A stretch of DNA of 40,626 nucleotides from a virus, in the IMG/VR virus record IMGVR_UViG_3300021139_000041, positions 1 through 40,626 of that record. One strand, written 5' to 3'. The position numbers were made by a program, and so were the translations under genes. The notes beneath the pieces were generated by a model that was given only the letters and a program-made list of their open reading frames with translations, had not been told where the DNA came from and did no database searches. Position 1 is the stretch's first letter. The number at the start of each line of letters is the position of its first letter. Positions 15,948-34,934 of this stretch are shown piece by piece.

Positions 15948-17594
15948 TTAGTTCAAATTAAATTGTAAATAAATGTCTCCGTTACTGCCACTGCCTGGAT
16001 TGGGTGGAGCAGATCCAAAGGTAATTTTTGGCCCAGTTCCGCTTGTGCTACTGGTATATAATGTTGGTTCCACAGTTGCTAAAGTTCCTGCAACAAAAGC
16101 AGTAGTTGCTAACAGTTGGCTGTTATCTCCCAAGGCCGGAGTTGATGCTGCTGGCGATCCTGTAAATGTAGGACTATCTATGTTGGCCTTTAACGCTAAT
16201 CCGTTTGCAAGCCCTGACGAAGACGAATTTGCTAGATTGTTTATGGCACTAGACAATGCTCCTATTATGAGGTTGGCTACATTGCTGACAAACTGTGTAG
16301 TTGCAATATTGGTGCTTGCATCTAAATCAGGAGTGGTAACTGCCTTGGGACTTCCAGTCAAAACTGGTGAGTTTAATGGTGCCAACAAAGGAAGCACATT
16401 GGCCACTATGTTGTTGATGCTTGCTATAACTGTAGCGATGTTAGAGTTAATAGATGCAACATCTGCATGCTCGGCAGCAATTACTCCAGCAATATTTGAG
16501 TTTAGACTGGCCACTGTTGTGACTAAATTGGAATTTATAACATTTTGTACTGAAGCAATATTGGCAAAGTAGTCACTGCGTAAAGTAGCAACTGCTGTAT
16601 TGATTGTGCTTATTTGCGCTGCCACATTTGACTCAACAGGAGCTAACGAGTTATCAACATACTGCTTGGTGGCTACACCCAAAGGCAAAGCAGGATCATT
16701 TGCTACTGTGATCAATCCTGTAGTACCATTTATGGTCAATGATGGTACTCCAACTAATGCTGGAGTATTGGTATAAATTTGTACTCCACTATTTAAACTG
16801 TTATTTTTTATTATCAGCGGCCCTGCGCCAGCAGAAATTGTTGCGTTTGTGACATTGAGATTGGCGCCAACTGTGACTGTTGCCCCAAAACTAGTGGCAA
16901 TATCATTTCTAGCATAGTTGATGGCTGCAACATTACCCAGTGCAAGACTATTTGTAGCATTGCCAGTAAACACCATGGTGTTGGCAATATTCACACCAGG
17001 GTTAATGGTTAAAAATGCATTATAGGGAGCAGCAGTTGCTGGACTCAAGTTAAACGTTGCATCATAGCTGGTGACACTGACCAAGTTGTTGTTGCTATAT
17101 GTGCCAACAACTACGTGTGTGTTTCCCGAAGTGTCAGTTACAGTATCGGCGTATGCACCACTTTTTAATTGTCCAGGCACATAGTTTGGCCCTATTAGAT
17201 ACCATGTGGTGCCGTTCCATGCACGTAACTGCTGATTGGTTGTATCCCACCATTGGTCTCCTGTATGTACAGTTATATTTCCCAATGTCCTTGGATCTAT
17301 GCTAGATGCAAGGCGGCCGCTAACCGGATTCCAATTTATACTATCATATGATTTTATTGTTGCATTACCAGAATCGTACCACAGTGTTCCTGTTATTGGA
17401 TTGTATCCAATACTCTGTCCTGGTGGAATTGAATCTGCAAAATTTTCTAATAGGCGTACAAAATTGTCGTTCTGCAACAATCCATATCCAGTATAATTGC
17501 GACCAATCAAGGTCAGGCCGGTACTAGAATCTGTTGTTCCATCTAAAAGTGTTAGTAAAACGTTTCCGCTGGTGGTGTTAATTGTGTAACTCAT
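15948..17594 (-). CDS. Tail fibre-like protein A
   Basis: The 548-residue protein has the shared fibre N-terminus (LTLIGRNYTGYGLLQNDNF, LLENFAD, GTLWYD). After ATKQYVDNSLAP comes a heptad-like helical stretch (about residues 310-400), then two copies of a known fibre repeat: SPVLTGSPKAVTTPD with IATTQFV (about 406-436) and SPTFTGSPAASTPALG with LATTAFV (about 470-500). The coiled coil implies a trimer. It ends DIYLQFNLN, a common fibre ending. It starts four bases after the small structural gene at 17599-18303. Confidence 0.75.
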   Translation of the reverse strand: MSYTINTTSGNVLLTLLDGTTDSSTGLTLIGRNYTGYGLLQNDNFVRLLENFADSIPPGQSIGYNPITGTLWYDSGNATIKSYDSINWNPVSGRLASSIDPRTLGNITVHTGDQWWDTTNQQLRAWNGTTWYLIGPNYVPGQLKSGAYADTVTDTSGNTHVVVGTYSNNNLVSVTSYDATFNLSPATAAPYNAFLTINPGVNIANTMVFTGNATNSLALGNVAAINYARNDIATSFGATVTVGANLNVTNATISAGAGPLIIKNNSLNSGVQIYTNTPALVGVPSLTINGTTGLITVANDPALPLGVATKQYVDNSLAPVESNVAAQISTINTAVATLRSDYFANIASVQNVINSNLVTTVASLNSNIAGVIAAEHADVASINSNIATVIASINNIVANVLPLLAPLNSPVLTGSPKAVTTPDLDASTNIATTQFVSNVANLIIGALSSAINNLANSSSSGLANGLALKANIDSPTFTGSPAASTPALGDNSQLLATTAFVAGTLATVEPTLYTSSTSGTGPKITFGSAPPNPGSGSNGDIYLQFNLN

Positions 17595-17598
17595 TGCA

Positions 17599-18303
17599 TT
17601 ATCCTAGAGTGCTTAGATTGGTTAAAGTTTGAATACGCACTGTATAGTCAATTTGAATAAGTCGGTTCAAGGCTTTTTGCACCGGATGAAACACAACATG
17701 AGTCAATAACAATCCAGTTGATAACAATCCCACAGTGCCGTCAGTGCTGGCGCCTCGTAATCCTAGCTCATCAAACACATATTCTCCATTGAGATCGGTG
17801 CTGTTATCAAATGCCTGTTGTCCACTGGGCTCGCCGTAGTCAAGCAAACAACTTACCAATATATCAGTATACACTGTGCCTGGAATGTGTGTTGCACTCA
17901 TGTAATTGTTTACTGGATCAGGGTTGGCAATTGAGGTGTTGTCCACAATCTTGCTGTAAGTGGGATTATACAAATTTGCGTTTTGCCCTGTAGTATTGGT
18001 GGGCAAATATGTAATGATGCCTGTTGGATCAACGCTGGTGCCGCCGTTACCAAAATTCATTTCATATATGAAATTTTGACTTTTGTTTGCGATACTGTTT
18101 GCTAGAGCCACGCTCATGTTCTCGTAGTGAATTGCATTGAACTTGTCACGTAACACAATTGGATTTGCGCGATCTGTTACATCACTGATCTTGATGTGCC
18201 CTCTAACATAAATTCCTGTTGATTCATTGGGGCTTTTTTGGTTATTTTCCACTGGTTTTTCCTCTATTTTTTGCGGGGTTGGGTCATTATTGTTATTTAT
18301 CAT
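17599..18303 (-). CDS. Baseplate or tail-associated structural protein
   Basis: The 234-residue protein has a charged, disordered N-terminus (about 28 residues), then GIYVRGHIKISDVTDRANPIV, LRDKFNAIHYENMSVALAN and NFIYEMNFGNGG. A conserved GHI-I-D plus NAIHYENMS pattern is familiar from phage virion proteins but has no assigned activity that I know. Its position between the giant baseplate protein (ATGA overlap) and the first fibre suggests a connector between baseplate and fibres, in the slot where T4 has gp8 to gp11. Assignment to one of those is not supported by visible similarity. Confidence 0.6.
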   Translation of the reverse strand: MINNNNDPTPQKIEEKPVENNQKSPNESTGIYVRGHIKISDVTDRANPIVLRDKFNAIHYENMSVALANSIANKSQNFIYEMNFGNGGTSVDPTGIITYLPTNTTGQNANLYNPTYSKIVDNTSIANPDPVNNYMSATHIPGTVYTDILVSCLLDYGEPSGQQAFDNSTDLNGEYVFDELGLRGASTDGTVGLLSTGLLLTHVVFHPVQKALNRLIQIDYTVRIQTLTNLSTLG

Positions 18304-21300
18304 GGGGCGAATCCTCCTCTAGATGCTTTCAGGAATGTGGCCTGTACGCCTGTTTGGCTGTCTAGTGTATGTCCGTTTGACGGAGTTCCGTTTCCTCTAG
18401 AGTACCAAATATTGCCTTGTACCAGACTGGTACCTGCTGCAACTGTGGTTTGTCCGTCTATGTTTACTTTTCCAAGTATGTAAGCGGTGTTGACATAGGC
18501 CGATGTCACGTTGTTGTTGATGTATATTGGACTTGTGGTATTGTCAAATCCCACTCCGGTAGTGGTTAGATTTGCAGTCCATGAGCTACCGGTCCAGTAA
18601 TACAATTGATTGGTAGTGGTGTTATACCATTGATCATACGGTTGCAACACATTGGCCGTTGTGGTGTAATTGCTCAAATTACCGTTAAAATACACAGTTG
18701 AATTTGCTGATGTTGTGATATTTGATGAAATATTTGATTGGCTAGATATATTGGCAAAATATGCTGAATATACATTGCCCAACACAGTGTAAACATTACC
18801 ATTGTATTGCAACACACTGCCCACAGTGAACACAGTGTTTGAACTCCAACTTGGAATGGTCACGTTTGGACGTGTGGTAGGCGCCGAGCTGGCAGTGATG
18901 ACAAAGGGCTCGTCTCCGCCATCGGCATCAAATCCCAGATTGCTATCAAACACCTCAGGCAAGCCCTGCAGAGTGCCCGCAGTTATGATAACTGGTACTA
19001 CATTGGAATTGGTAACAGTTTGTAAAGCTCGCATCGTAACTGTGTTGGCTGTGTTTCCAGCGAACAAGTAGATCACATTGGCCGTCACATTGGCAAAATT
19101 TGCACCGTACACATTGCCAGTGGCTTGATAGCTGGCACCATTGTAGTAGAAGGTGCTGCCCGACATTATTGTGGTGTTGTTGGGAGTCCACACATTGGAT
19201 ATTGTTCTAATCTGTGTCAATACATCACCAATGTTGGCACTGATTGTTCCGTTGATGCGCAGGCCATATGACACATAGTCAGTCATGGTGTAGGTGTTTG
19301 CATAAGTCAGTTGCAGATTCTTGGTAGCAGTACCAGGAATTGATTGTAGTATACTGGAGTCAACCACATAAGAATTGGCCACGTGTCGTGTTGCTACATT
19401 GCCCACGAATGCAAATTGAATATTTGCGCTGATGCTGGCAAATCCCGAATCAGTTCCACTAGTGACATAAGTGAGATTGGAGCTGATGTTGGCAAACGTG
19501 CTACTATAAACATTTCCTGTAACCACGTAGGTGTTGTTATTGAAGTACACATACTCGCCCACAGAAATAGTGGCGTTTAACGGAGTCCATGGTATGTTGT
19601 AAGCCCAAGTATTACCGGTTGTAACATAAGTGTTTCCTTGGTAATAAATGTAAGCACCAACCGGATAGTTGGCAAACGTGTGCCAATTGTTTATGGTCAA
19701 TGTGGTTGGGGCAGTGCCGTCCACCGCACGTCTTATTTGTCCAAGACTGTTAATACTGATTTGAGTGGTATTTGCTGCTATTGATGCAAATGTGCTGGCA
19801 TAAACATTACCAGTGGTCAAATAAGTATTGCCACCATAACTGATGACACGATCTGTTGCCACCACTAGATTTGGTGTCCAAGCAGTACCTGGTTCAGTTA
19901 TGTAATTTCTATAATAAGTGATTTTTTCACCATTAATAAACACCACCCCAGGAATTCCCAGAGCCGGATTTGGCGTTGGCAACACTTCGGCATTGACCAC
20001 GTTGATAAATTTATCAGTGATCAATAAATCTTTGGCCAATTGTGTTTTTGCAGTACCAATTCGATAGTAACTTGAATTGCCGTTCATGTCATCAAATATT
20101 CTAAAGGCCAAGTTACTGCCGTCATTTGTAAACACTTCGAGATTGAGTGCGTCGTATACACGTCCAGGAACCAGCTCTTCAGGTGCATGACTGTTGTAGG
20201 TGTCGTAGTAGGCGCCCCCGTCAATCTGTATATCTCCAGGATTGACTCCAAATACATTGCTGTAAAAACTCTTGATGTTGGTGTCGTACTGTGTGCCTAT
20301 GTAGGTGTTGCCGTCAACTATCACGCCAGGATAATCAATACCAGACTGATACAGTGCCAAGTTAACGTTGCCGTTAAATGCAGTGATTCTATCATTGGCT
20401 GTATTAAAATTGCTTGCAGAGATTGAGGTAATATTTGCAGTCGGGAACACAATATTGCTGCCTACATTGTAGGTATTGCTCAATTGATACAACAAACCGT
20501 TATTGACTATAATGGAGTTGGCATTGATTGTGGTGTTTGCAGTAACATTGTCCCAGAATACAAAAGTATTGGAATTTGTGTAGTCCAAGCGATCAAATCG
20601 CATTGTGGTAGAGATACTACGTACCAAGTTGTGACCCATGTTGTTTCCAACAAATACATTTCGCAATACTGCATAGGCCACTGCGCCAGTTCCAACGCCG
20701 TTTATGATGACTTCGGGTTCTGAAGTAAATCCCGCTCCCGGAGTCAACACTGTGATACTAGCAATGCCGCCAGCAGCGTTCACTGTGGCTACTGCGGTTA
20801 CACCTTGGCCTCCGCCACCTTTGACCACAATTTGTGGTGCAAACAAATATCCAGTACCAGGAGATTTAACAACTATATCGGCCACTTGATATTTGTAATT
20901 GTTCAGCCATTGACGGTACACTCCGGTTTGATATATTGTAGAGTCATAGGATTGTGTGCCTGTTGGACTACGATAAATGCCTAGAGTGGCGTCCCAATAT
21001 GGTGGTAAATCAAAATCTGTAATATCTCCGTTGTAGTAGTCATTGCCAATGTAGTCAACAACAAACTCTCGAACCAAAGTTCTATAGGGCTTGACTTCGT
21101 TGATATAATCCAAATAGAAGGTTTGGTTGTCAGGGATATAACTTGGGAATTCTTGCAGTTTACGAATGCGTTGTGTTGCACTTATAAAACTGGTTTTGAA
21201 TACCCAATCCAAATTCTTTTGCTCAGTGAGAATGTAATTGATCATGGCAAAGAAGATGTTGTTGTATTCATTTACCAAGTCATCAATGAATATGTTATCT

Positions 21301-24300
21301 TGCATGGCCAGCAATATATGGCGCAGTTCAACTTGAGCATAGGACTCAAATAAATTGGTTGTGTTTATTTGTATTGTACCATTTTCAATTCCTACTAGGT
21401 TTCGATTCAAATTGTTGTCAATGTAGTAAATTACAAAATTATCATTACCGGCATTCAATACTTTGACATAGGTGTTTGCAGTCAATGTCAGTTTGCCTAG
21501 TTCCAACAAGTTGGCCACTGTTAGATCTGGCGTGCGGCTTGAATTGTAGTTGGCGTCATACCAATCAATATAGTTCCAATACAGATTGGTTTTATAACTT
21601 TGTGCCATAGTGGGCACTGTGCCAAATGTCAATTCTCCGGCAACTGTTTGTAAAGTATAAATTGTCCAACGTCCTTGGCTGTTTGCATCGTTGGTTACCA
21701 GAACTTGATAGCCAGGTGACAAGTTGGTTGTGTCTATATAAGCCAATTCATCAACAGAATTTACTGTCAAGTTGTACTGTTTTGATCCTGGTGTTGGGAT
21801 GGATTCACTGCTGTTTAGCAGTGTCAATGATTTTCTCTCTACCACAGGATACGCCGCCAGCAAAGGATTTACTATACTAAAGTAATTTTGTAGCGCCAAC
21901 ACACGATTCATGATCATTGTTTGTATTGGACGATTACCAATGCCGTAACGCTGGCTCGGGATCAGCGCAGGATTGGGCACAACATTTCCGTATGTGTCTA
22001 TGCCAGCCAAGCTATCAATCAGTTTGGTGAGAATGGACTTTGGAATTTGACTGCTGGAATTGCCCTGTTGTACCAATTGGTATTCGCTATGCACCAAGTT
22101 TGGTGTTGTGGTTTGACTGCCTAGTTGTAGTACAGTTTTTTGTCCGGTGAGTAAGCCATCAACATTGTATAACGCAACAGTGTCGTTGCGCAGTATTGTG
22201 GCGTAGGGAATTCCCTGTGATTGTGGGTTTTCTATTGCTTCCGCAATTGACAACACACTGTTAAATTTGCCCTGTTTAGTAGCAATGGTGTCTATGCCTT
22301 TGACCCAGAAGTAATAGTGCAATTTCACCATGCCATTGGCAGTGGCGTATCCATAAGAACTGTAGGCACTGTCATCAGTGGCTAAAGGTGTTCCTGAATA
22401 GCCATGTGCCACATACTGGCTTGGCGGCACTGTGCTTTCTACCCATTGATAAATGTCGATACTGCTGCCCGGGAACATCTGTCCCCAATGATTTAATCGG
22501 TAAATGAGATCATCTTGTTCGTAGTCAATAAATCTCACAGTGCTTAGATCCCACCATATCTGTCCCACCTGTTGTGGGCCCCAATATAGGTCAGCATATA
22601 TAGTGCCTGTGCCGTTGTTGTATTTTGCTGGATCAACTTCAAGTTTGTAATCTATATCAGTTTCCACCGAGCTCAATACTTTGCCCTTCTTGGGATCAAT
22701 ATAGTCCAATGCTGCCAAAATATTGTTGTTGGTTAGATTGTACAAAAATGTTCTGCTGATGCTGTTAATATCCACCTGCGCAGTTTGTTGTCTTGTCAAA
22801 TTCCAATATGTTGCTCTAGCAGGATTTACAAATATCACTACTTCGCCGGCGTTGTTCTTGTATCCAGGCGCACCCGCCACAGCCACTGCACGAGACACGT
22901 CAAGACTGCTTCCGTACATGTCTCCGGCCTCTAGTGGAGTTTCAAGTTCTCTTGTGTACAAGTAGGTGCCAACATCGTTTGCCACCAAGGTGTTGATGAA
23001 TGGCTCAAACATGTATACTGCGCCAGAGTTTTGTATGTAGTCAATGAAATTGGTTGTACTAGCATCAATGGTGAGTGCAGTATTGTCAAATGTGGTGTGT
23101 TCTTCTGCGGCTGATCCTTGACTGCCAATGCCAAGCACTGTGCCATCTGAGCTTACACTAACACTAACACCAAATTGTCCTATTTCGTTATTGGGGTGTG
23201 CAATAACAGCCGAACGCACATATTGTCCACCGGTGTTGCGTACCCAACGCTCAACTACACCGTTGAGGTATCCTGATGCCGTTGATCCTGGAGCTCCTAC
23301 AAACAAATTCCCGCCGGTACTGTCAATGGCAATTGATGTTCCAAAGTTTGCATTTTGATTGTTGTGTAAACTTGTTATAGTTTGCAGTAATGTGATTGAA
23401 CCAGTGTTTGTGTTGTTTTGATAGATGTAAACATTACCAGCACCAACGTTGCCGTTTGTGGCCTTGGGGTCTGCAACAAACAACAACGAACCATTGTTAT
23501 TGGTTTTTATAACATTGCCCCAACTTGCAGTTGCTCCACTGACGCTATTGATTACCGAATACGACTCGTAAACAGTTTCGGGTTGGGTGGCATTGAACGA
23601 CACCACAGTGTCTAGTCCACTAGCAAAAACCCATGTTTCATCAGCACTGATTGCAACACTCTTACCAAATCCCACATTTGCGTTGCTGTAAAATCCTTGC
23701 CCTGTTATCAATTGCCCAACGTTGTTTACAAAATCAACTTGGTACATTTGTACATAATTAGAGCCGGGTGCACCTATCACCACGGTGTTGCCCTGTGTGT
23801 CAATACTTGCACCAAATTTTACATCAGGAGTAAATTCTCCACTCAGTATACTGTCAAGTTGATATGCACCATTGTTGATGCCATAGATTTGCACAGTGTT
23901 GTTGCCTGGATTTCCAACATATACCATTCCGGTAGTACTGTTTACCTTCACTGCAGAGCCATAGTTGTTGTTGGCCACGTTGCCATAATACGAATATGTT
24001 TTGACTGCGGTGTTGCTCAACCAGGGATTGTTAAAGGTGTATGTTCCCCACCCATTAGCAGTGGCGTTGTTGACCCAAACATGATCATTGTTGAGCCAGC
24101 CATTTTTAGGTGGCGCGATTGATGCCAAATTAGCAGTTGTTTGATATCTTGCCGAGCGTAGCGCATACACAATGCCCGATCCGGTATAAGATCTAACTCG
24201 AATCAAGGGCACAAGTGCATCTTTGTTGGTGATAGCAATTGTGACATTTAGAGAATTTATCACACGCACAATTTGGTACACGTTGTCCATGTTGTGACCA

Positions 24301-27300
24301 AAATCTTTCAATATGAATACATCATCTGCCTCAAACGAATGTGCTGCATTGAATGTTATTGTGGCATAATTGTCTAGGGTGTAGGTGACTTGAGTAGCAG
24401 TCAAGTCAGTTTCGCAAACTCTCAGTATGTCCCATTGTCCAACATAATTATGAGCTATCCAAACTTTATTGCCAATTCCCACAGTGTTCACTGGTTGAGT
24501 CCATTGGGCAATATCGTAAATTGCATAATCTACATCGTTTAAATTCATGTAACCAGCATCGGGCATGTCGGTCGGATACACAGTAACGGCTCGATTATTG
24601 TAAATTGAAGTCACAGTACTGGCCAAATTGCTGGCGTTATAAACATTGCCAAGGGCTCCGGCAGCAGCGTTTCCATTTAGATTTACAATAATATTTGCAT
24701 TGCTGAATGTGCTGTTGCTAGTGAATGCCACAGGATTGGTTGTGAATATGTTTTGATCCAACACAAACTCTTTGAATGTATTAGAATTCAATCCACCGTA
24801 TTTTCCAACTTGAAACGCCCATTCTTCGTACACAGTGATGTTGCCCTGTACGTTATTGAAGGTGGCCGTAGTCAAAGCATTTACTGAATTGATAGTGCCT
24901 TTTTGTTTGATAAAGCCTTGATAGAATTTTGTCTGCGCGGGAATGGTCAAGCCAAGATCAGTTAGATAGTTGCGCTCTCTAAAGCCAATCAAGCCAGCAC
25001 TGTAGTTTTGGAATGTGTCTTCCAGTGGTGGTAAATCCACATCATAAAAATTAATAAACTTTTGAGCGTTGTGTGCAAAGTTTGGCAACATTCCGGTTTG
25101 AATACTGTTTTGCAAAATCTGTGTCCACACTGCAAGATTAAATGACTGGCTTGCAGGAACATCCGCAGTGGCAGTGTAATAGAAATTGTTGTACTTGACA
25201 ATATCGCCCAATTTGTAATCTGTGCCCGGGCTCCAGAGTGCAATAGTGGGATCGCTGTAGATGTAACCAGGTGCACTCAATGATCCGTTCCAAAAGCCGG
25301 TTTTGGATCCAAACAGTTTGAGTCTGTATTGACGAGACCCTTGGCTGGGAATATAGATTATGTCTCCAAAGTCATCCACGTTATCAAACACCAACACATG
25401 CTCGTACTGCACCAGATTTAGCTTGGCATAACAGATGATGGAATTGTCCAGTGTTGTAACTGTAAACACATTGGGCGTCAATTTACCAGCTGTTTCAGCT
25501 CCAGAATCTTTTCTTTGTACATTATAATTGTTGGGCTTGATGGGTATGAAGTCTTGGTTCAACAGTTTGTTGCCGTTATCGGTGTTGGTGATTTCGTCAA
25601 CAACCGATGCTATGCTTTGCAGTTTAAGACCAGTGGCCGCGGGATTTAGTACAATTACATTTCCCTCGCCCCAACCCTGTTGGCTCCAGTACATGAATTC
25701 TTGTACACTGAGATCCCAATTTTGCGGCAAGCCAAGATCGGTATTGAAATCTTCAAATACAAATCCTAAGTCTGACAAATATCGTCCATAGCCCACTATG
25801 AAATCCACAGTTTGTTGTACACTTCTAAACACAGTGCCATACGGGATAATGGTTCTTACTCCGGTATTTTCGTTGTAGGTTTTTACAGATTCGCCATTGA
25901 CTGTGACCGCAGTGGTGTTGTTGTTTATCAGGCTGGGGTAAATTACAAAGTAGGGACGTGAAGGGTTATATCCAGACACGCTATAGCCTGTTCCGGTATT
26001 TTCAATCACAATCGCACTGTATTCAGCAACACCAATTGGAGTTGATTTGTTCAAGTAAACACTGTAATTGTTATTGGGAATAATAACACTAGAACTAGTT
26101 GAACCTGGGCTTGTTTGCTCGGCCGACACTGTCAATAAATCTTTATCGGTGTAGCCGGAAATTTTATAGTTCAACTGTACAGATAAATTTGTAAAATAGT
26201 TGTTCAAGAACGACAACGGATCCATGCCTAGATTTTTGATATTGTCAGCAATCCAATTAACATATCCACTGGTGCGTTGTACAGTTGTACCTGTGTCAAA
26301 CCCGTTGATCTTTAGGATTGAGGGTTTGATTTTTTGATTGTCCAACTGACTGAAATAGCCAGTGATGGGGTTTTTGTAAAAAGAACTGGTGTCAAATTGT
26401 GTAGCAAAATACTGTGCAGGTTTTGTAATTGCCAATGTGGCTTGCACAGCATATGGATAATCGCTGCTGCGTCTCCATGCAGACTCGGCGGGACCTTGTT
26501 GTCCTGATGCAAAGTTGGCCGAAGCGTATGACGCATTCAACTGTGATATTAAAGGAATCTCTATTGGAGACAACAAATCGCCTGAGCTATCCACTGGAAT
26601 AAAACTCAACAAATTGGGTCTAACATAGCGCGAGTCTGTGTAAGGTTCATTGTTGTTCCAAATGTAGCCTTGACTCAAATCACTCCATAGCAGTGTGTTA
26701 CCGCTGGTGTAGGGCGCAGGTCCATAACGTGTTGTCCACCAACTTGGCATGCTACTAAAGCCCAACATTCTCCAAGGAGTCAAGTTGGGAGTGTCTGTGT
26801 CAAACCAATAGTTATAGATTGCACGCCAGCTGCCTTGCAAGTAGTCTCCGCTGACTGAATCGGGAAATTGTGCATAATTCCAAGTCCAGGGATTGTTTGC
26901 ATCATACGAGGTGTTCGACGAGTAATCCACATTGTTGGTGCCGGCCCAGCTCAAAAAGTTTTGTCCTAGAATTTGATTGTACTCTAGTAAACTGTAGTCG
27001 GTTTTTCTAAAGCGTCCCGGAATCACATCATCTAAATTAATAGCGTTATTGGCGTAGTTGGCCTTGATGTTGTTGTAGATTCTCAACTCTAGTTCAAGCA
27101 AGAACTGATCTCTAAAGTCGCCAAATGCCGGAGTGATACTGCCGTCATGTCCCTGTATCACCATGGTTGGAGTTTGATACGTGGTGTCTAAATAAAGTTC
27201 TGGGGCAAACTTGGGATACAGTCCCAATTTGCTAGGTGTTTCAGGAATATAATTTCCATCAGTATTGGCGTAATCACGTATGAGAATGGTGTCACCTACG

Positions 27301-30300
27301 TTGAGTGTTCGACTAAACACAATCACTGGAATTGACGAGCTAAAGGTATAGTCTATGCCCAATGTGCACTGTTCTCCATTGACCCACACCAGCACCGCAC
27401 GATTGCTCAATACTGAATTGTTAAAGATACTGTTGATTTCGTAGTTGGTTTGTCTAGCATTCAACACTGTGTAGGTAAGGGCAGTATACTCACTGCCTTG
27501 TGGCACCATGTCACTGTAATACCATGGGAAACTGTTGTTCTTGATGGCATTGATGTTTTGTAGAATAGTGTCTACACTGCTGACAGGATCTGCATAATCA
27601 AGTGTACTCAGTGAACTGCACAAACTCAAAAATTTGTTCTTGAATTTTTGGTATTCTTTTCTAGCTAGGTTAACGGCACTGACAAAATTTGCTGTTGGAT
27701 CATTCAAGAATGCCATTGCATAAATCAGCGGTGACTGATGTTGTATCAGTGTACCGCCTTGTGCTTTGAGATAATTGTCCTGTAGTGCTATGTTGTTGAC
27801 ACTGGTATTCTCTACCAATTTTGAATAATGAGATCTAATCTGTCCCAGCGTGATTGTGGGGAACTCTTCGTTCAAGGGATTTAGATCTAGGTTGTCAGAA
27901 ATTTGATAATAGCCCAGAGTGCTGATGGTGTTGCCAAAAACCAATACGTCTATTTTGTCGTTTAGTGCTGGAGTTGCAATCAAGGCCACAACATAGTAAA
28001 TTCCATACTGTGCCAAAAAGTAATCTTGAGTTGGTGCCAACAACTTGTTGTTTAAAAATACCTTTAGGTGCGGCACTGTGGCTTGCGCAGCAGGCACTAC
28101 ATCAATTTGTACGAACGCAAAATCATTACCACTCAATTTGAGTGTTGCTGGCGGTGGTGAATCATTGTTGGCCGGCAAGGTCAACGAATTGCCGCTTACA
28201 ACAAATTGATCATAAAATTTTGTAAACAGTTGATATTGTTCGGTGGATTCTCTATTTGCTACCCAATTGCTCAACAGTGTTTGCTTGGTTCCTGAATTTT
28301 TAACCATGTAACCGGTATTGCAATTGGTTTCTTTAAACTCTCCACTCACAGTTGTTCCAATCAACTGTGCTGTAAATTGAGTAAAAATATCAGTATCATA
28401 ATAGTTACTGAAAACAATGTCGCCAATGTTATTGAAGTTTTGATACGATAATGGGAATCCCAAAACAGCATCGGCGTTTGCAGTTACGGTTGCAGTTCCT
28501 GTTCCGCTGCCTGTTCCGGTGGCAATAAAACTTACGCCAAACTCATTTGCGCTGGCGCCAATTGCAGTAAAGTCAGTAGTGCCAACCGAGTATATGGTAT
28601 ACGATTGCCCTACCACAAAGTTGCCGGCAGTGGTCACTGGTACTGCATAGCCAAACAACTGACTGCCACTGAATCCAGTGCCAGGATACACTGTGGTGTT
28701 ACTAAAACTGTAGCCGTCGGCATCATACAAATCAAACAAGGGCGGCTGATTCATGTTGTATTTTATTTGACTGTTGTGCCATGCCGTGCCATCAAAGTGA
28801 AACGTTACGCCTTGATTGGTGCCCAATACCGGAGTCACTACCGCTCCGGGTAGAATTGTTATACCTGTGTCTACTAGAGTAATAAAGTTTCTACTCTGAA
28901 TGGTTTGCATCTGTACTTGATACACCTTGTTTGAAACATTGGTGTCATAGTCATTGGTGAAAATAACAGTTTGTCCCTCGGCCAAGACTTCACCATTTAC
29001 AGTTGTTGTTATTTGTCCTTCAACGTTGGCAAATGCATCGCTGGCAGTAAAATTGATGATGTCAATGTTGGGCAGGAAATAGCTTCCAAAATTAAACAGT
29101 TGTAAATTGGCTTCAAATTCAACAATGGGTCTGCGTCCAGCAATACCTGTGCCATAATTAGGAGTGTCGTTGTTGTACGTGGCAGTTGCGGTTATGACAT
29201 CTTTATGGAACCAACGATTGTATCGTGTCCAAGGGTTGAGGTCTTGACTGCCGCGATTGATTGTGATGTAGTCAGGGCTGGTGTCAATGTCGTCGCCGTA
29301 GCTTTCAGGTACCACTAAGGCATCAACTGCAGCTAGAGCAATAGATGTACCCACACCTTCTACATAATAACTGTTATTGGCATAACTGCTGGGAGTAACA
29401 TAGCTGTCAAATGTGATTTTGAGTCCGTTTGTAAAAATTACTCCGTTGGGACTGGTATAGCCAACTTGTCCCAATATGTCGTTTGTGACATCAATAGTGG
29501 AACCAATGTTGTCAACTATTTTAATCACGCCAACAAAGTCAGGGTTGCTACTGTCTTGATAATATAGTGTGTCTAGATTGGCAGTGATTGCTGGAGCCTT
29601 TTGATATTGGTAGTTGTTGTTCAACCAAAAATAGTTTCCAGCATAGGTGTTGCCACTATTGACAAAGACTTTTTGTTGTGTTCCCACCGCAGTTGATGGT
29701 GCCAGTTGTATCACACTGTCGCCGGTGTTGGTGGGCACAAGATTAATTTTCCAAACATTTGTTCGTGTTGCAGAATGTACCACTGATCCAGGTGCCAAGG
29801 TAATGGTGCTAGTGACAGCAGCGCCCAGGTTGGGAGTTGTCCAATACGTGTCGTCAACATCGTTATTGACAAATACCAATGTCTTGCCATTTAGTTGACT
29901 GGTTGTGCCATCAATTCCACCGGGGAATCGAGACAAGAACGTGCTCAACAATTGATTTTGAATGTCAGTGTAGTGCAAAGTCACTGCCGAGTTTACACTT
30001 GCCACCAAGGGCAAACTAGAATTATTTACGTAAAAATCTTGAGCGTTGGCCAAAGGAACTTGGAATGTGATGCTGCCAAGGTCAGTTCCGTTGTTTTTGA
30101 CTCCCAATATTTGTCTAGTGCTGAGAGTGTTGATGTTGGGATCTACCCCTGATGTGCCTTGATTGGTTTGAATCCAAAAACTTATACCGGGTTGGTTGAT
30201 GTTGAAGGTGTAGGTGCCTCCACGTGCAAGAGTCAGTTGTAGGTTGGGATGATTGCCCGCACCACTGAAAGTGTATCCACCAATGTTGGTGTTTCTAACA

Positions 30301-30791
30301 ACATCGTATGTGGCCTGATACGGGGTTTGATTTGCATACACCGCAACTGATGTGGGATTTCCGCTACTGTCCAAGGGACCATTGGGCAACCAATAGTAGT
30401 TGTAGTAATTTACAAATTTATCATAATCAAAATGCCCATCATAACTGTACGCTTGTGAGCTAAACAGTCTTTGATGATTGTTTGAAAATCCGCCATTGGT
30501 GGTGATGCTGTTTAATAGGTCAATGTAGCCCGAATTGAAAGTTATATCGCCATTCTTGTCTTTGACAACAACACTGCCCTCGAGTTGATAGTTCTGTCGT
30601 TGTGCAGAAAACTCATTGATGTAGTTGTCGCCTTGGCGATATGTTGGTGCAAACGTTCTGCCGATGTAGCCATTTAGTTTGACGTTTTCAGCGTCAACCA
30701 CTAACTGATCAAGAGTGGCTCCAAGAAACTTTTCGTTGGCGGTGGTTTGAAATACGCTGGGTAGAAAATTAAGAGTAGATTTTAAAGCCAT
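18300..30791 (-). CDS. Giant baseplate/tail structural protein (4163 residues)
   Basis: One uninterrupted frame of 12.5 kb starts immediately after gp6 (TAATG, one-base overlap), where T4 encodes gp7. The N-terminus has LPSVFQTTANEKFLGATLDQ, NGYIGRTFAPTY, and FDYDKFVNYYNYYWLPNGP, a signature of giant proteins in marine T4-like phages. Other recognisable parts: an SVGTTDFTAIGA repeat (about 720-770), a conserved YWFDTDTP...PWRMLGF region (about 1325-1380), a carbohydrate-binding-like W/Y module (about 1846-1890), seven FG-GAP-like repeats (about 2273-2654), a GTGY/GAGF beta repeat pair (about 3300-3365) and five GNVY-type repeats (about 3645-4020). It likely forms a baseplate wedge or collar-like outer structure. 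The exact T4 equivalent is uncertain; the size is about four times gp7. Confidence 0.8.
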   Translation of the reverse strand: MALKSTLNFLPSVFQTTANEKFLGATLDQLVVDAENVKLNGYIGRTFAPTYRQGDNYINEFSAQRQNYQLEGSVVVKDKNGDITFNSGYIDLLNSITTNGGFSNNHQRLFSSQAYSYDGHFDYDKFVNYYNYYWLPNGPLDSSGNPTSVAVYANQTPYQATYDVVRNTNIGGYTFSGAGNHPNLQLTLARGGTYTFNINQPGISFWIQTNQGTSGVDPNINTLSTRQILGVKNNGTDLGSITFQVPLANAQDFYVNNSSLPLVASVNSAVTLHYTDIQNQLLSTFLSRFPGGIDGTTSQLNGKTLVFVNNDVDDTYWTTPNLGAAVTSTITLAPGSVVHSATRTNVWKINLVPTNTGDSVIQLAPSTAVGTQQKVFVNSGNTYAGNYFWLNNNYQYQKAPAITANLDTLYYQDSSNPDFVGVIKIVDNIGSTIDVTNDILGQVGYTSPNGVIFTNGLKITFDSYVTPSSYANNSYYVEGVGTSIALAAVDALVVPESYGDDIDTSPDYITINRGSQDLNPWTRYNRWFHKDVITATATYNNDTPNYGTGIAGRRPIVEFEANLQLFNFGSYFLPNIDIINFTASDAFANVEGQITTTVNGEVLAEGQTVIFTNDYDTNVSNKVYQVQMQTIQSRNFITLVDTGITILPGAVVTPVLGTNQGVTFHFDGTAWHNSQIKYNMNQPPLFDLYDADGYSFSNTTVYPGTGFSGSQLFGYAVPVTTAGNFVVGQSYTIYSVGTTDFTAIGASANEFGVSFIATGTGSGTGTATVTANADAVLGFPLSYQNFNNIGDIVFSNYYDTDIFTQFTAQLIGTTVSGEFKETNCNTGYMVKNSGTKQTLLSNWVANRESTEQYQLFTKFYDQFVVSGNSLTLPANNDSPPPATLKLSGNDFAFVQIDVVPAAQATVPHLKVFLNNKLLAPTQDYFLAQYGIYYVVALIATPALNDKIDVLVFGNTISTLGYYQISDNLDLNPLNEEFPTITLGQIRSHYSKLVENTSVNNIALQDNYLKAQGGTLIQHQSPLIYAMAFLNDPTANFVSAVNLARKEYQKFKNKFLSLCSSLSTLDYADPVSSVDTILQNINAIKNNSFPWYYSDMVPQGSEYTALTYTVLNARQTNYEINSIFNNSVLSNRAVLVWVNGEQCTLGIDYTFSSSIPVIVFSRTLNVGDTILIRDYANTDGNYIPETPSKLGLYPKFAPELYLDTTYQTPTMVIQGHDGSITPAFGDFRDQFLLELELRIYNNIKANYANNAINLDDVIPGRFRKTDYSLLEYNQILGQNFLSWAGTNNVDYSSNTSYDANNPWTWNYAQFPDSVSGDYLQGSWRAIYNYWFDTDTPNLTPWRMLGFSSMPSWWTTRYGPAPYTSGNTLLWSDLSQGYIWNNNEPYTDSRYVRPNLLSFIPVDSSGDLLSPIEIPLISQLNASYASANFASGQQGPAESAWRRSSDYPYAVQATLAITKPAQYFATQFDTSSFYKNPITGYFSQLDNQKIKPSILKINGFDTGTTVQRTSGYVNWIADNIKNLGMDPLSFLNNYFTNLSVQLNYKISGYTDKDLLTVSAEQTSPGSTSSSVIIPNNNYSVYLNKSTPIGVAEYSAIVIENTGTGYSVSGYNPSRPYFVIYPSLINNNTTAVTVNGESVKTYNENTGVRTIIPYGTVFRSVQQTVDFIVGYGRYLSDLGFVFEDFNTDLGLPQNWDLSVQEFMYWSQQGWGEGNVIVLNPAATGLKLQSIASVVDEITNTDNGNKLLNQDFIPIKPNNYNVQRKDSGAETAGKLTPNVFTVTTLDNSIICYAKLNLVQYEHVLVFDNVDDFGDIIYIPSQGSRQYRLKLFGSKTGFWNGSLSAPGYIYSDPTIALWSPGTDYKLGDIVKYNNFYYTATADVPASQSFNLAVWTQILQNSIQTGMLPNFAHNAQKFINFYDVDLPPLEDTFQNYSAGLIGFRERNYLTDLGLTIPAQTKFYQGFIKQKGTINSVNALTTATFNNVQGNITVYEEWAFQVGKYGGLNSNTFKEFVLDQNIFTTNPVAFTSNSTFSNANIIVNLNGNAAAGALGNVYNASNLASTVTSIYNNRAVTVYPTDMPDAGYMNLNDVDYAIYDIAQWTQPVNTVGIGNKVWIAHNYVGQWDILRVCETDLTATQVTYTLDNYATITFNAAHSFEADDVFILKDFGHNMDNVYQIVRVINSLNVTIAITNKDALVPLIRVRSYTGSGIVYALRSARYQTTANLASIAPPKNGWLNNDHVWVNNATANGWGTYTFNNPWLSNTAVKTYSYYGNVANNNYGSAVKVNSTTGMVYVGNPGNNTVQIYGINNGAYQLDSILSGEFTPDVKFGASIDTQGNTVVIGAPGSNYVQMYQVDFVNNVGQLITGQGFYSNANVGFGKSVAISADETWVFASGLDTVVSFNATQPETVYESYSVINSVSGATASWGNVIKTNNNGSLLFVADPKATNGNVGAGNVYIYQNNTNTGSITLLQTITSLHNNQNANFGTSIAIDSTGGNLFVGAPGSTASGYLNGVVERWVRNTGGQYVRSAVIAHPNNEIGQFGVSVSVSSDGTVLGIGSQGSAAEEHTTFDNTALTIDASTTNFIDYIQNSGAVYMFEPFINTLVANDVGTYLYTRELETPLEAGDMYGSSLDVSRAVAVAGAPGYKNNAGEVVIFVNPARATYWNLTRQQTAQVDINSISRTFLYNLTNNNILAALDYIDPKKGKVLSSVETDIDYKLEVDPAKYNNGTGTIYADLYWGPQQVGQIWWDLSTVRFIDYEQDDLIYRLNHWGQMFPGSSIDIYQWVESTVPPSQYVAHGYSGTPLATDDSAYSSYGYATANGMVKLHYYFWVKGIDTIATKQGKFNSVLSIAEAIENPQSQGIPYATILRNDTVALYNVDGLLTGQKTVLQLGSQTTTPNLVHSEYQLVQQGNSSSQIPKSILTKLIDSLAGIDTYGNVVPNPALIPSQRYGIGNRPIQTMIMNRVLALQNYFSIVNPLLAAYPVVERKSLTLLNSSESIPTPGSKQYNLTVNSVDELAYIDTTNLSPGYQVLVTNDANSQGRWTIYTLQTVAGELTFGTVPTMAQSYKTNLYWNYIDWYDANYNSSRTPDLTVANLLELGKLTLTANTYVKVLNAGNDNFVIYYIDNNLNRNLVGIENGTIQINTTNLFESYAQVELRHILLAMQDNIFIDDLVNEYNNIFFAMINYILTEQKNLDWVFKTSFISATQRIRKLQEFPSYIPDNQTFYLDYINEVKPYRTLVREFVVDYIGNDYYNGDITDFDLPPYWDATLGIYRSPTGTQSYDSTIYQTGVYRQWLNNYKYQVADIVVKSPGTGYLFAPQIVVKGGGGQGVTAVATVNAAGGIASITVLTPGAGFTSEPEVIINGVGTGAVAYAVLRNVFVGNNMGHNLVRSISTTMRFDRLDYTNSNTFVFWDNVTANTTINANSIIVNNGLLYQLSNTYNVGSNIVFPTANITSISASNFNTANDRITAFNGNVNLALYQSGIDYPGVIVDGNTYIGTQYDTNIKSFYSNVFGVNPGDIQIDGGAYYDTYNSHAPEELVPGRVYDALNLEVFTNDGSNLAFRIFDDMNGNSSYYRIGTAKTQLAKDLLITDKFINVVNAEVLPTPNPALGIPGVVFINGEKITYYRNYITEPGTAWTPNLVVATDRVISYGGNTYLTTGNVYASTFASIAANTTQISINSLGQIRRAVDGTAPTTLTINNWHTFANYPVGAYIYYQGNTYVTTGNTWAYNIPWTPLNATISVGEYVYFNNNTYVVTGNVYSSTFANISSNLTYVTSGTDSGFASISANIQFAFVGNVATRHVANSYVVDSSILQSIPGTATKNLQLTYANTYTMTDYVSYGLRINGTISANIGDVLTQIRTISNVWTPNNTTIMSGSTFYYNGASYQATGNVYGANFANVTANVIYLFAGNTANTVTMRALQTVTNSNVVPVIITAGTLQGLPEVFDSNLGFDADGGDEPFVITASSAPTTRPNVTIPSWSSNTVFTVGSVLQYNGNVYTVLGNVYSAYFANISSQSNISSNITTSANSTVYFNGNLSNYTTTANVLQPYDQWYNTTTNQLYYWTGSSWTANLTTTGVGFDNTTSPIYINNNVTSAYVNTAYILGKVNIDGQTTVAAGTSLVQGNIWYSRGNGTPSNGHTLDSQTGVQATFLKASRGGFAP
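18735..19850 (-). repeat. Five degenerate GNVY coding repeats in the giant protein
   Basis: Near the C-terminus of the giant protein, a unit of the form Y-x-G/N-N-x-x-Y-x-x-x-G-N-V-Y, usually followed by x-x-x-FA-x-x-x-x-N, occurs five times (starting near DNA positions 19850, 19660, 19560, 19170 and 18815). Each is preceded by a W-containing segment such as WTPNLV or WTPNNT. The W, Y and G spacing resembles small carbohydrate-binding modules, so binding to cell-surface sugars is possible. Confidence 0.6.
22830..23975 (-). other. Predicted seven-bladed FG-GAP-like propeller in the giant protein
   Basis: Residues about 2273-2654 contain seven successive units with a G-x-(S/A)-V/I start, a central strand, a GAPG or related turn and a V-x-I/M-Y/F end. 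Examples are FGASIDTQGNTVVIGAPGSN, FGTSIAIDSTGGNLFVGAPG and YGSSLDVSRAVAVAGAPGY. This is the FG-GAP pattern of integrin-type beta-propellers, and seven units would close a ring. Such domains usually bind proteins or sugars. Confidence 0.65.
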
Positions 30792-33700
30792 TACTGTGTT
30801 GATCCGAAGTTAACGCCACTTATACCAAGTTGGGCAGCAGTCAATGATGATACAATTTGCACATCATTCACTGTTGCTGCATTGGTTAAAATTTCCCAAG
30901 GCTCGCTGTTGATTTGGAAGTAATTTCCAAATATCAAATCAGTACTGCTTGGTACTATAACGATGCTGGCAAGATTTGGGGCTAATACGCTATGCAAATA
31001 AGCTGCCAATTCTGAGAAGTAAAAGGTATCACCAAAATCCCAATTGCTAATATCAAAGTAGTTGTTGATGGCGTCAATCACTTGTGTTTTCATTTCGTTG
31101 GCTGTGATATTCACTGCGGGATTGATAACAACTTGGAATGTTGCCTGTAGACTTGGATCAGCCTTAGCGCCAAATAGGGGTTTGAACTGTGCAGGATTGT
31201 ACACTATACTGTCGCTGATGGTTTTACTGTTATCTAACGAATTATAGGCCACTTCCAAACTGCTGGCTGTTGGTGGTAAAGGTTCTTTGACAGTGCCGGT
31301 TAAATCCTGTAACCAAGCCATGTAGTTGCTGGTGTAGGCTGCTGTCAAAATGTACATGTCAATTATGTTTACTGGCGTAGGATCTATTCGATTACGTGCC
31401 GGTGTGTTGTGCTTGTATTGGAAGTACAGGTTGTTGGCACTGAGCGAGGTGCCGGCTGCAGGAACATTGCCCACAAGTCGAGTAAACAAGTCGGGATTGT
31501 CCGGTATTCCAATAATCTGTGTGCTCGGGAATGTTACTTTGACTTGTGTATCATCAGTGTAGCCGTCAGGAGCAGTTATTGTGTTGTAGATTGACCAAAC
31601 AATATCAGTACCAATTGGTGTTGCAGTGTTTGGCAATGTGTTAATTTTCAGTATCTTGATGGAATCAGTGATTGTGGATCCAGTCATGCTATCATATACA
31701 CGCACTGTGGGATCAAAATAGAAGTTGGTTTCCCCGGCACTGCCAAATGTGTAGTTCATTGTCTTGTATGACACATTGTAAGCGCCTTGGTTAAAAGTGA
31801 ATTTAATAAGCCAATTGGTGCTGGTGCCAATACTGCTAGGAGTAATCAAACTCCAAATTTGATTGACTTGATCATAATACAAACCAAAATTCACATTGTT
31901 GGTGATGTATGTGACCATTTGTGTGATCACGGTGTTTGTCAATTTGTTTTTGTATGGAGGTATGATCGAAGTCACAGTTGCTCCAGTGGGCACAACAGTT
32001 GCAAAACGCACCAGGCTTGGTGTGTTAAAATCACCATTGGACACTGTGCTGGCCACTGATGCGTAGCTATTGGCTCCACCATATGAAAATTCTACGCTGG
32101 CGCCAGCGGCCACATACTGCAAGTTTCCACTGATGCCAAGTCCCACTTGCTGAGTATTTCCCAACAATTGCAAGTATCCGGTGCTGCTTGTGGTGCTTGT
32201 GGTGTGCTGATTAAATTGTATATTGGCATTGGGCGGCAAGTAACGAGGATAAACTGCATAATAGTAGTTGCTCATCTCGGTAGAATTTATAATAGGAATA
32301 ATCTGATTATAAATTGCATTGTATATGTCTGTAGTAGTTAAAAAACTAAACGAAGTTGAACTTACTGTGTTGTTGGCAGTTAGCACACCATCATCGCAAA
32401 ATACATTGGTGCTGCTGAAACTGCCAGTGGGATCTAGTGCGTCTAAATATAGACTCACACCCGAACTGGTTCGATTCACTGCCTTGACTTTTTGTATGCT
32501 GGCGAACGAGGTCAAGGGGAATATCTGATAATCCTCGCCATTGATCATGCGATTCTGTGTGTAGTACTGTTGAGGGGCATTTGACTTGATACTGCTCAAA
32601 CTGGGTGCCGCATTGGCATTTGTAATGGTGTATTTTAAACTGGCAGTTACAGTCAGTGTTTGTGTAGCGCCGGTCTTGCTTATGTAACTGAACGGAATTG
32701 ACACATAGGCAAGATCATCGGGTGCTATGGAATAGGTGAGTCCATTGGAACTTCTAAAATAAAATGTAAAGTTGCCTTGTGGTATGTTGCTGAAACCACC
32801 ATCGCCAAACACCAGGCTCACTTGATCGTTGTTGAGTGTGTTGATTTGATATATGTTTTTGTCTGTGAGATTGTTGTAAATCACGTTGATGCCGGGAATG
32901 GCTGGAACTTTTTCCCATAGTGTTGTGGGTGCTCCGTTTACATTGGTAGCATACAACCATTGATCATCATCGGTGATGTTATGAGTGGTCACGTTTACAT
33001 AGTTATTGGGTATGGCATTTGTGATTGTAAATGTTGTTGCCGATAACTGTCCTTGTTTGAAATAAACAAAAAATCCTGTGTTGTTGCTGCCATTACCGTT
33101 ATTGTCGTTTTGATACAATATATTGAACTTGCTAGTCTGAGTGGGATCGTTCTGGTATAGATAAGATTTGCCTAGACTGGTAGCACTCACTGCTTCAAAG
33201 TTGGTGTTGGTGCCATTCACGCTGGCCCCAAAACTCACAACTGGCAAATTGTTGGGATTCAAGTTAATGGTGTATTCGTCAGTTTTGATATTGTTGATGG
33301 TTTGACTGTTGCCAGGCTTGCCTATACTTTCGCTACTGATCAAGGCAGCATTTAGCACCGCAGTAAACTGCTCGAGCCAATTGTCGTTAGTTAAATCGTT
33401 CCAGTGAATCGTGGTGTTTTCTAAATTGATTCCGTTGCTGTCATATACAGACTCTGAAGTCTTGATGCTGTCAAATTTCAGTAGGCCACTGGCAGGTGTA
33501 TTGCGAGGCGGGTTATAGCTCAACATACGTGCCAACTTGAGAATACTGTCACGACGTTGTGCAGTATCCAAGAAGTTTTCACGTGCATTCAGATCCGTAC
33601 GGAATGCCAGACTCTGTCCTAGAAAACTGATCATGTCAATGATAGCAATGAACTCACTGCTTTCAATGTAGTCATTGAAAGTTTCTGGGTAATAGTTTTT

Positions 33701-33832
33701 AATGTAATTTATCATGGTGTTACGAATTGTTTCAAAATCGTAACTGGTGAAGTCAGCGTTAGTGAACGTTTGATAAATTTTTGTCCAGTCTTGCTGAACA
33801 AGAAGACTGGTTTGACGAGTTGTTTGAGCCAT
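30791..33832 (-). CDS. gp6: Baseplate wedge protein gp6
   Basis: The 1013-residue protein has the gp6 signature near its N-terminus: DFTSYDFETIRNTMINYI, YYPETFNDYIESSEFIA, FLGQSLAFRTDLNARENFL and ILKLARMLSYNPPRN. gp6 dimers form the iris-like inner ring of the T4 baseplate and join the wedges. The C-terminal part has the long repeat-poor beta-rich tail expected of the baseplate J/gp6 superfamily. At 1013 residues it is much longer than T4 gp6 (about 660). A late box AATAAATA lies upstream at 33851-33858, and the giant gene follows with a one-base overlap. Confidence 0.93.
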   Translation of the reverse strand: MAQTTRQTSLLVQQDWTKIYQTFTNADFTSYDFETIRNTMINYIKNYYPETFNDYIESSEFIAIIDMISFLGQSLAFRTDLNARENFLDTAQRRDSILKLARMLSYNPPRNTPASGLLKFDSIKTSESVYDSNGINLENTTIHWNDLTNDNWLEQFTAVLNAALISSESIGKPGNSQTINNIKTDEYTINLNPNNLPVVSFGASVNGTNTNFEAVSATSLGKSYLYQNDPTQTSKFNILYQNDNNGNGSNNTGFFVYFKQGQLSATTFTITNAIPNNYVNVTTHNITDDDQWLYATNVNGAPTTLWEKVPAIPGINVIYNNLTDKNIYQINTLNNDQVSLVFGDGGFSNIPQGNFTFYFRSSNGLTYSIAPDDLAYVSIPFSYISKTGATQTLTVTASLKYTITNANAAPSLSSIKSNAPQQYYTQNRMINGEDYQIFPLTSFASIQKVKAVNRTSSGVSLYLDALDPTGSFSSTNVFCDDGVLTANNTVSSTSFSFLTTTDIYNAIYNQIIPIINSTEMSNYYYAVYPRYLPPNANIQFNQHTTSTTSSTGYLQLLGNTQQVGLGISGNLQYVAAGASVEFSYGGANSYASVASTVSNGDFNTPSLVRFATVVPTGATVTSIIPPYKNKLTNTVITQMVTYITNNVNFGLYYDQVNQIWSLITPSSIGTSTNWLIKFTFNQGAYNVSYKTMNYTFGSAGETNFYFDPTVRVYDSMTGSTITDSIKILKINTLPNTATPIGTDIVWSIYNTITAPDGYTDDTQVKVTFPSTQIIGIPDNPDLFTRLVGNVPAAGTSLSANNLYFQYKHNTPARNRIDPTPVNIIDMYILTAAYTSNYMAWLQDLTGTVKEPLPPTASSLEVAYNSLDNSKTISDSIVYNPAQFKPLFGAKADPSLQATFQVVINPAVNITANEMKTQVIDAINNYFDISNWDFGDTFYFSELAAYLHSVLAPNLASIVIVPSSTDLIFGNYFQINSEPWEILTNAATVNDVQIVSSLTAAQLGISGVNFGSTQ

Positions 33833-33877: not shown

Positions 33878-34252
33878 TTAATTGGTCGTTAGAGTTTGAT
33901 TGTTTTTGTCAAAATTCAACGCCAATGTGGCCACTTGATTAGTGGGCACATACGACAGTGTGATTTCGATCATAAAACCCGATTCTTGTTGAGTGATGTT
34001 GACGTGACTCACTGCGATTCTTGGATCATAGCCCACGATTTTTGTGATATCGTCCTGTATGGTTTGTTTTGTAGTAGTGTCCAATGGCTCAAACAACAAG
34101 TCCCAAATAATGGTACCAAAATTTGGTTGCATCAATTTGTCGCCGCGTTTGATGCTGAAGTGATTGATTAGATCCTGTTGAGCCAGCTGAAAATCGGTTA
34201 GAGTGAATTTTTTACTGTTGCCGTAGGTGCTAAATCCAATGTATGTAGTCAT
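33878..34252 (-). CDS. gp25: Baseplate wedge protein gp25
   Basis: The 124-residue protein has the GPW/gp25 fold features: a QQDLINHFSIKRGDKLMQPNFG segment in pieces, then IIWDLLFEPLD, the conserved core close to the EPR motif that contacts the baseplate, and a C-terminal beta hairpin (MIEITLSYVP). gp25 sits with gp6 and gp53 in the wedge and helps start the sheath. Length matches T4 gp25 (132 residues). It starts ten bases after the lytic enzyme gene. A box AATAAATA overlaps the lytic gene's stop but is probably too close to the ATG to serve it. Confidence 0.92.
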   Translation of the reverse strand: MTTYIGFSTYGNSKKFTLTDFQLAQQDLINHFSIKRGDKLMQPNFGTIIWDLLFEPLDTTTKQTIQDDITKIVGYDPRIAVSHVNITQQESGFMIEITLSYVPTNQVATLALNFDKNNQTLTTN

Positions 34253-34262: not shown

Positions 34263-34934
34263 TTATTGTGTTAAAACGGTAACAGCATAGCGTCCGCTAT
34301 TGAAGGCATTGGCAGTCAACGGGGTACTTACATTGTTGTATCTCCAGCCCCAGGCGCCAGTGCCCGAACTGTTCACATTGGTAGCAGGAGTTCCAACTCC
34401 CACGGTCCAGGCCACATAAATCATTCCTGCCACAACATCTGCTGCATCGGTTGACTGTATGGCATCAATATTAGTCAGCCCGTAATAGAGATCATGAATC
34501 ATTTGCAGTGCCAAATAGTCCTGTGTGACGGTGTTAGACAAAAAAGATGTTAGGCTAGTGGTGTTATTGAGATAGTTTGAATACGAGTTGTTGACGTTTC
34601 GCTTGGGAGTCGGGCGCCAGCAGGTTTGATGGTTTACACAGTTGTTGCCGTATGCGGCGTTTGATCCCGGCGCCAAAAATCCATAGTTTTCCAGGGTCTG
34701 AGTGCTCACTTGATATGCGCCAAGAGCATTTGAAGTGCCGATCAATTGATAGTTCCATTGCGATTGATCGTAAGCAATTTCGGCCAGTAGATTCTGAGTT
34801 TGCGTGGCAGTCAAGCCAGCAGTGAGTCCCCATCCCGGAGGATAGGCCGGCATTTTGGCAGTGCCTAACCAACTCAAGGGCAAGGCATGCAGTATTGGCA
34901 ATCCGGCTGCTGCTTGAATTCCGTAGTCTATCAC
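34263..34934 (-). CDS. Baseplate-associated cell-wall lytic enzyme (separate lysozyme module)
   Basis: The open frame begins with ATG at 34985, but the best start is GTG at 34934-34932: it overlaps the gp5 stop as GTGA and has a perfect GGAGG (34945-34941) six bases before it. That gives 223 residues. The protein has AEIAYDQSQWNY with a likely catalytic Glu (E52), then GAYQVSTQTLENYGFL (residues 72-75 = GAYQ), matching the E...GxYQ pattern of lytic transglycosylases and goose-type lysozyme folds. Later GVGTP and GAWGWRYNN are conserved in related phage tail lysins as I recall. In T4 the lysozyme is inside gp5; here it is its own gene, adjacent and coupled. It would cut peptidoglycan during tail penetration. 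Confidence 0.8.
   Translation of the reverse strand: MIDYGIQAAAGLPILHALPLSWLGTAKMPAYPPGWGLTAGLTATQTQNLLAEIAYDQSQWNYQLIGTSNALGAYQVSTQTLENYGFLAPGSNAAYGNNCVNHQTCWRPTPKRNVNNSYSNYLNNTTSLTSFLSNTVTQDYLALQMIHDLYYGLTNIDAIQSTDAADVVAGMIYVAWTVGVGTPATNVNSSGTGAWGWRYNNVSTPLTANAFNSGRYAVTVLTQ

Follow-up and report, generated by a model that had tools for sequence, protein, structure and literature searches.

A giant gene follows gp6 in a T4-like baseplate cluster

The window, that is, the whole stretch of 40,626 nucleotides analyzed here, contains a single ATG-initiated ORF of 4163 codons on the minus strand, which has zero internal stops and occupies 12,492 bases (31%) of the virus record (Table 1). By comparison, the other five frames across 18300-30791 contain 132 to 266 stops each, and 50 base shuffles of this stretch gave open frames of at most 158 codons. 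Three relatives (L007, L015 and L032) align along residues 1-4163 with ~63% identity, so the ORF did not arise by fusion during assembly. Its ATG begins at position 30791, which is also where the stop codon of the upstream gene ends. The product of the latter matches the baseplate wedge families phrog_10646 (E 4e-288) and phrog_219 (E 5e-26), in addition to a TIGR02243 match in NCBIfam (3e-6, under the family cut-off), and is thus a gp6-type protein. The sequence-only reading had described a single 12.5-kb gene directly after gp6, in the gp7 position; both points were confirmed by the gp25-gp6-giant order, the one-base overlap and the two wedge families, and the strand, which it left unstated, is minus.

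Upstream of the giant and gp6 genes lie those for gp25, a hub protein with an OB fold, a lysozyme-like protein and gp53-type proteins, so the stretch represents a T4-like baseplate cluster. The genes of the OB-fold hub protein (34931-36355) and of the separate small lysozyme-like protein (34263-34985) overlap, and the functions of gp5 look split between them. On the other side, the giant gene has a conserved neighbor of 234 residues, which was rejected as a counterpart of gp8-gp12, since it has no detectable match to these T4 proteins. Tail-fiber-type genes (15948-17594, phrog_4209 and others) come directly after the giant.

Table 1. Coordinates of the giant gene, its neighbors and the segments of its product
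Feature	Position	Strand	Basis or remark
Giant ORF	18300..30791	-	4163 aa; phrog_10938 virion structural protein, 1037 bits
gp6-type baseplate wedge protein	30791..33832	-	1013 aa; directly upstream of giant gene
gp25-type wedge protein	33878..34252	-	PF04965, 3.4e-10
234-aa conserved neighbor	17599..18303	-	phrog_11259
Conserved N-terminal segment, residues 1-150	30342..30791	-	Common to all relatives; without known homologue
Beta module, residues ~159-260	30012..30317	-	Profile match E 4e-12; also in P-TIM68 protein
Docking-type domain, residues ~1101-1176	27264..27491	-	VIA fold match on AlphaFold2 model
Candidate first half of gp7-type core, two helices, residues ~1654-1705	25677..25832	-	Weak colinear hhalign match
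CBM5/12-like domain, residues 1853-1889	25125..25235	-	PF02839 and fold match
Candidate second half of gp7-type core, residues ~1905-1997	24801..25079	-	hhalign; KGT motif; 1952-1980 strongest
Predicted FG-GAP beta-propeller, residues ~2262-2660	22812..24008	-	PF14312; most but not all relatives
Conserved C-terminal core, residues 2660-3300	20892..22814	-	Alignment occupancy
GGxGYxxxP beta module, residues ~3300-3380	20652..20894	-	hhalign and hmmsearch
Possible further CBM5/12-like fold, residues ~3408-3458	20418..20570	-	Weak VIA matches
Five CBM-like repeats, residues 3636-3675, 3702-3731, 3733-3772, 3868-3906, 3981-4018	18738..19886	-	

The giant belongs to a known family of jumbo phage virion proteins

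Profile search using hmmscan revealed that the giant protein matches PHROG 10938 "virion structural protein" in three stretches (E 0, 1037 bits), and both this match and the place after gp6 establish it as a member of that family. A tblastn search placed homologues in 60 phage records, and every named phage among the matches listed is a jumbo phage. The homologues of isolated jumbo phages span 3340 to 4555 residues, including CBB (3340), Vibrio 2.275.O (3771), SCTP-2 (3807), MIJ3/PA5oct (3857), Atu_ph07 (4449) and Phosso (4555). In IMG/VR, 78 loci carry a giant homologue, some on contigs of at least 350 kb, and most of the closed giant ORFs encode 3400-4200 residues; IMG/VR scans with the PA5oct-type and Phosso proteins as queries gave no matches. 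One relative (L068:10001-28144) has a frame that stays open for over 6050 residues and is unfinished where the locus ends, and in another (L020:4674-13849) the frame is interrupted, leaving ORFs of 2067 and at least 1022 residues, through an error or a real split.

Under a strict distance rule, gp6 lies directly upstream of the giant in 64 of the 73 testable loci. In the exceptions other than SCTP-2, an apparent 484-906 bases separate the giant from a gp6 gene upstream, and at least the annotated giant genes of MIJ3, Atu_ph07, CBB, Vibrio and Phosso are in fact adjacent to it. SCTP-2, with gp6 ~100 kb away, is the sole locus without gp6 at this place. The order gp25-gp6-giant is seen in the record studied here and in the isolates MIJ3/PA5oct, CBB and Vibrio 2.275.O, and gp6 is followed by the giant in Atu_ph07 and Phosso as well. 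The giant gene, no novelty of this contig, adds one more member to a known family, and its arrangement is familiar from many jumbo phages and has a counterpart in cyanophages.

The PHROG 10938 giants, such as CBB_236, phAPEC6 gp245 and those of MIJ3/PA5oct and Atu_ph07, share the family and the slot after gp6 with the present protein. Nevertheless, the isolates have only 25-30% identity to it; they mostly lack segment 150-480 and the CBM position at 1851-1900, and its C-terminal CBM-like repeats are its own. Mass spectrometry of purified virions identified CBB_236 from 21 unique peptides that cover 7.72% of the protein (PMC5259590). Similarly, phAPEC6 gp245 (381.88 kDa), which is listed next to, and after, the baseplate wedge protein gp244 and which we took as a homologue by size and place without sequence comparison, gave 17 peptides and 7.6% coverage in virion mass spectrometry; the giant is not resolved in the tail map of phAPEC6 at about 25 Å (PMC7247149). 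As these counterparts are found in virions, the assignment of the giant as a virion structural protein is supported.

Conserved segments alternate with variable modules

Segment occupancy in an alignment of 41 giants distinguishes conserved segments (residues 1-150, 500-700, 900-2150 and 2660-3650) from segments that come and go (150-480, 700-760, 1851-1900, 2180-2660 and 3700-4100). Among the latter, the beta module at ~159-260, which we take to be YHYH/cupredoxin-like, is missing from most isolated jumbo phages (occupancy 0.03-0.17 in isolates). A module of the TDFTxIGA type, at residues ~717-770 (28480-28640), recurs in just one more of the 41 aligned proteins (L011).

Segment-wise structure prediction, the check proposed by the sequence-only reading, covered residues 900-2060 and 2660-3660. 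The AlphaFold2 models are of middling quality: residues 900-2060 have a pLDDT of 70 and a pTM of 0.66, and residues 2660-3660 were modeled more poorly (pTM 0.37). Two known folds were recognized in 900-2060, whereas a fold search of 2660-3660 gave no match at Z ≥5. A sequence search of the PDB with three profiles returned CBM-type matches and chance hits only, and the NCBIfam scan gave no match on the giant protein.

The first of the two folds, at residues 1101-1176, resembles TSP4 of phage CBA120 (PDB 7rfv), with a VIA Z score of 8.8 and an RMSD of 1.8 over 64 residues; further VIA matches are 9vzk_Y (Z 7.1) and 9xqd_G (Z 6.4). Common to fiber and spike adaptors, this fold is also present in a tail protein of cyanophage A4, baseplate proteins of P1 and phiKZ, and the N-terminus of the T7 fiber gp17. 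The best profile match of T4 gp10 to the giant, a weak one, falls on the same region (1139-1181 against gp10 347-393, hhalign probability 17%). Despite sharing the fold, the giant has one such domain inside its chain, whereas docking of the CBA120 TSP4/T4 gp10 type uses a trimeric spike hub.

The second fold is a CBM5/12 domain, assigned by both Pfam profile and structure, for which sugar binding is putative. PF02839 matches residues 1853-1889 scanned alone with 7e-6 and 26.4 bits, above the cut-off of 26.2, and stays under it (20.3 bits) in the scan of the full-length protein. Residues 1848-1895 superimpose onto the CBM5/12 domain of the Milano spike (8fqc_P1; VIA Z 7.8, RMSD 1.1, 31% identity), and onto that of the 7-7-1 tail spike/fiber (Z 7.7). 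Weaker VIA matches at ~3408-3458 (Z 4.3 to 9rkv_M and Z 4.2 to 8fqc_P1) hint at another such fold. For the C-terminal repeats, Pfam CBM_5_12 gave a single weak match (E 0.003); relatives have 0-8 CBM-like repeats per protein, in two or more positions. In addition, PF14312 FG-GAP repeats match ~2262-2660 in three stretches (1.5e-10, 41.5 bits against a cut-off of 23), and a pattern search found four blade-like motifs, which together predict a beta-propeller. The GGxGYxxxP module aligns with residues 213-273 of the Cr30 protein (hhalign 95.9%) and is common to Cr30, phiM12 and cyanophage gp7/gp8 proteins; taking this match as gp7 core homology was rejected, since it represents a shared accessory module.

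A weak, split gp7-type core signal in mid-protein

The sequence-only reading had seen a recognizable baseplate N-terminus, which was not borne out: the first 160 residues yield no match to any Pfam family or to profiles of gp7, gp8 or gp10. Profile-profile search of 14 giant segments against T4 gp6-gp12 yielded nothing significant, and T4 gp7 appears in none of the fold-match lists; the giant has no significant sequence or fold similarity to T4 gp7. The trifurcation fold is not among its fold matches either, with the candidate half at 1896-2060 modeled at low confidence.

Sliding windows compared with a combined gp7-core profile gave weak but colinear matches, in which residues 1660-1705 correspond to core positions 26-70 and residues 1952-1980 to positions 86-114. 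The pair recurs in every other relative tried as master, and AlphaFold2 helices fall at both places. No single window exceeds an hhalign probability of 9% to the core (T4 645-830), whereas a composite omitting the intervening CBM-bearing stretch reaches 22.6% with a score of 31.0; 60 random composites scored at most 25.5, the best of them touching the same region. In SCTP-2, the best single-sequence hmmsearch match to the core spans both halves, with a non-significant E of 0.17. As a positive control, the Caulobacter phage Cr30 gene after gp6 aligned with T4 gp7 645-830 at 97.4%. The positive controls, at 90-99%, link the cyanophage N-terminus, Cr30 and T4 gp7, and hhalign is therefore able to find the core at such a distance. 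Because the composite was chosen post hoc, after seeing the matches, we treat the weak, split mid-protein match as a lead rather than proof.

Cyanophages also encode giant proteins (3.9-4.3 kaa) after gp6, annotated as "baseplate wedge initiator" (phrog_2885), including those of S-SRM01 (3895 aa) and P-TIM68 (4307 aa). They resemble the present giant as single giant genes directly after gp6 with common GGxGY modules. However, the cyanophage giant carries a gp7 core at its N-terminus (hhalign 99.4% to Cr30 and 90% to T4 gp7), and the giant here has no such N-terminus. Full-length homology between the two was not found, and phrog_2885 is missing from the hmmscan matches of the giant protein, which places it outside that family. 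Cyano- and pelagimyophages are said to lack gp7, with VrlC replacing it (PMC7029224); contrary to the former, the cyanophage giant after gp6 carries a detectable gp7 core, linked to Cr30 as well as to T4 gp7 (loci L126:17949-29636 and L124:13752-16055). The giant was also considered as VrlC and rejected, as it has no similarity to VrlC.

A proposed enlarged wedge scaffold with swappable surface modules

In contractile tails, a gp6 dimer and gp7 form the wedge trimer. The T6SS counterpart of this wedge is TssF2-TssG (PMC6300606). We propose that the giant is probably an enlarged wedge scaffold in the gp7 slot of a jumbo T4-like contractile phage, with swappable surface modules. One copy would sit in each of the six baseplate wedges, where a mid-chain core of buried helices might bind the gp6 dimer. 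Everything else in the chain would extend outward as successive beta modules, beginning with the docking domain for fibers or spikes, and the carbohydrate-binding-like and propeller modules would lie at the surface, where they may touch the host and be swapped between phages. T4 gp7 occupies the same position after gp6 and might share the split core; by contrast, it has 1032 residues instead of 4163, and in T4 the genes that follow encode gp8-gp12 separately. Speaking against the proposal are the lack of a significant T4 gp7 match, with a core match about 23% probable by hhalign, the middling AlphaFold2 models and the distant gp6 of SCTP-2. A further elaboration, which we hold only tentatively and consider doubtful, is that the gp7 core was split by insertions and gained gp10-like docking and sugar-binding-like modules, so that one chain per wedge would cover the work of T4 gp7, gp10 and outer adhesins, with host-contact modules swappable without touching the wedge core.

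The lack of significant gp7 homology and the distance from gp6 in SCTP-2 also suit a peripheral docking and adhesin protein of the baseplate or fiber network that merely follows gp6 in the operon and has no gp7 core, another undetected protein being gp7. The clear modules are indeed of adhesin or docking type, but the conserved part of the giant is far larger than these modules, its place in the gene order holds in nearly every relative, and the core signal, weak as it is, is repeated and colinear; we regard this explanation as unlikely. That colinear signal also argues against convergent gigantism, in which an unrelated sequence would fill the gp7 wedge place and only the cyanophage giants would have kept the N-terminal core. 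Convergence would account for the matches of the cyanophage N-terminus to Cr30 and T4 gp7, neither of which the N-terminus of the present giant matches, and yet seems quite improbable to us. Very improbable indeed is a polyprotein-like precursor cut into several virion proteins: it fits the modular build and the low peptide coverage of the homologues (7.6-7.7%), whereas conserved and variable segments are interleaved rather than set apart by a constant linker, the published mass spectrometry tables give the giant as one product, and no cleavage site was recognized, albeit without a systematic search.

Compared to the sequence-only reading, the enlarged scaffold retains the gp7 slot, the giant size and the sugar- or protein-binder-like modules (CBM5/12, FG-GAP, docking-type domain and five CBM-like repeats), together with a virion location from homologue mass spectrometry, and loses the baseplate N-terminus. 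It is plausible that the giant merges the roles of wedge and adhesin; any adhesin role is at most shared, because separate fiber-type genes lie downstream, and outer adhesins are not wholly absorbed. Little is understood of the baseplates of jumbo phages, and most of their largest proteins carry the label hypothetical. Should the giant be an enlarged gp7 with plug-in modules, the present map of core, docking domain, CBM, propeller and C-terminal repeats could be placed in cryo-EM density, and one may ask whether the baseplate, beyond the fibers, binds the host surface.

Other genes in the window

The C-terminus encoded at 10913-12091 (phrog_6427) resembles the autoproteolytic intramolecular-chaperone domain of tail spikes (PF11962, E 0.006, under the cut-off). 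Two adjoining genes at 8967-10899 encode similar proteins that both begin with MAYSxGGLIxAxDYNGF, probably a duplication. Past the fiber genes, a minus-strand cluster (564-8635) encodes a radical-SAM-type protein (2909-4303; PF04055 7.6e-6, just under the cut-off) together with several proteins, either glycosyltransferase-looking or unknown, and the edge-cut gene at 1-612 has a radical-SAM-like cysteine motif too. The cluster is reminiscent of the radical SAM cassettes that pelagimyophages carry close to their tail fibers (PMC7029224).
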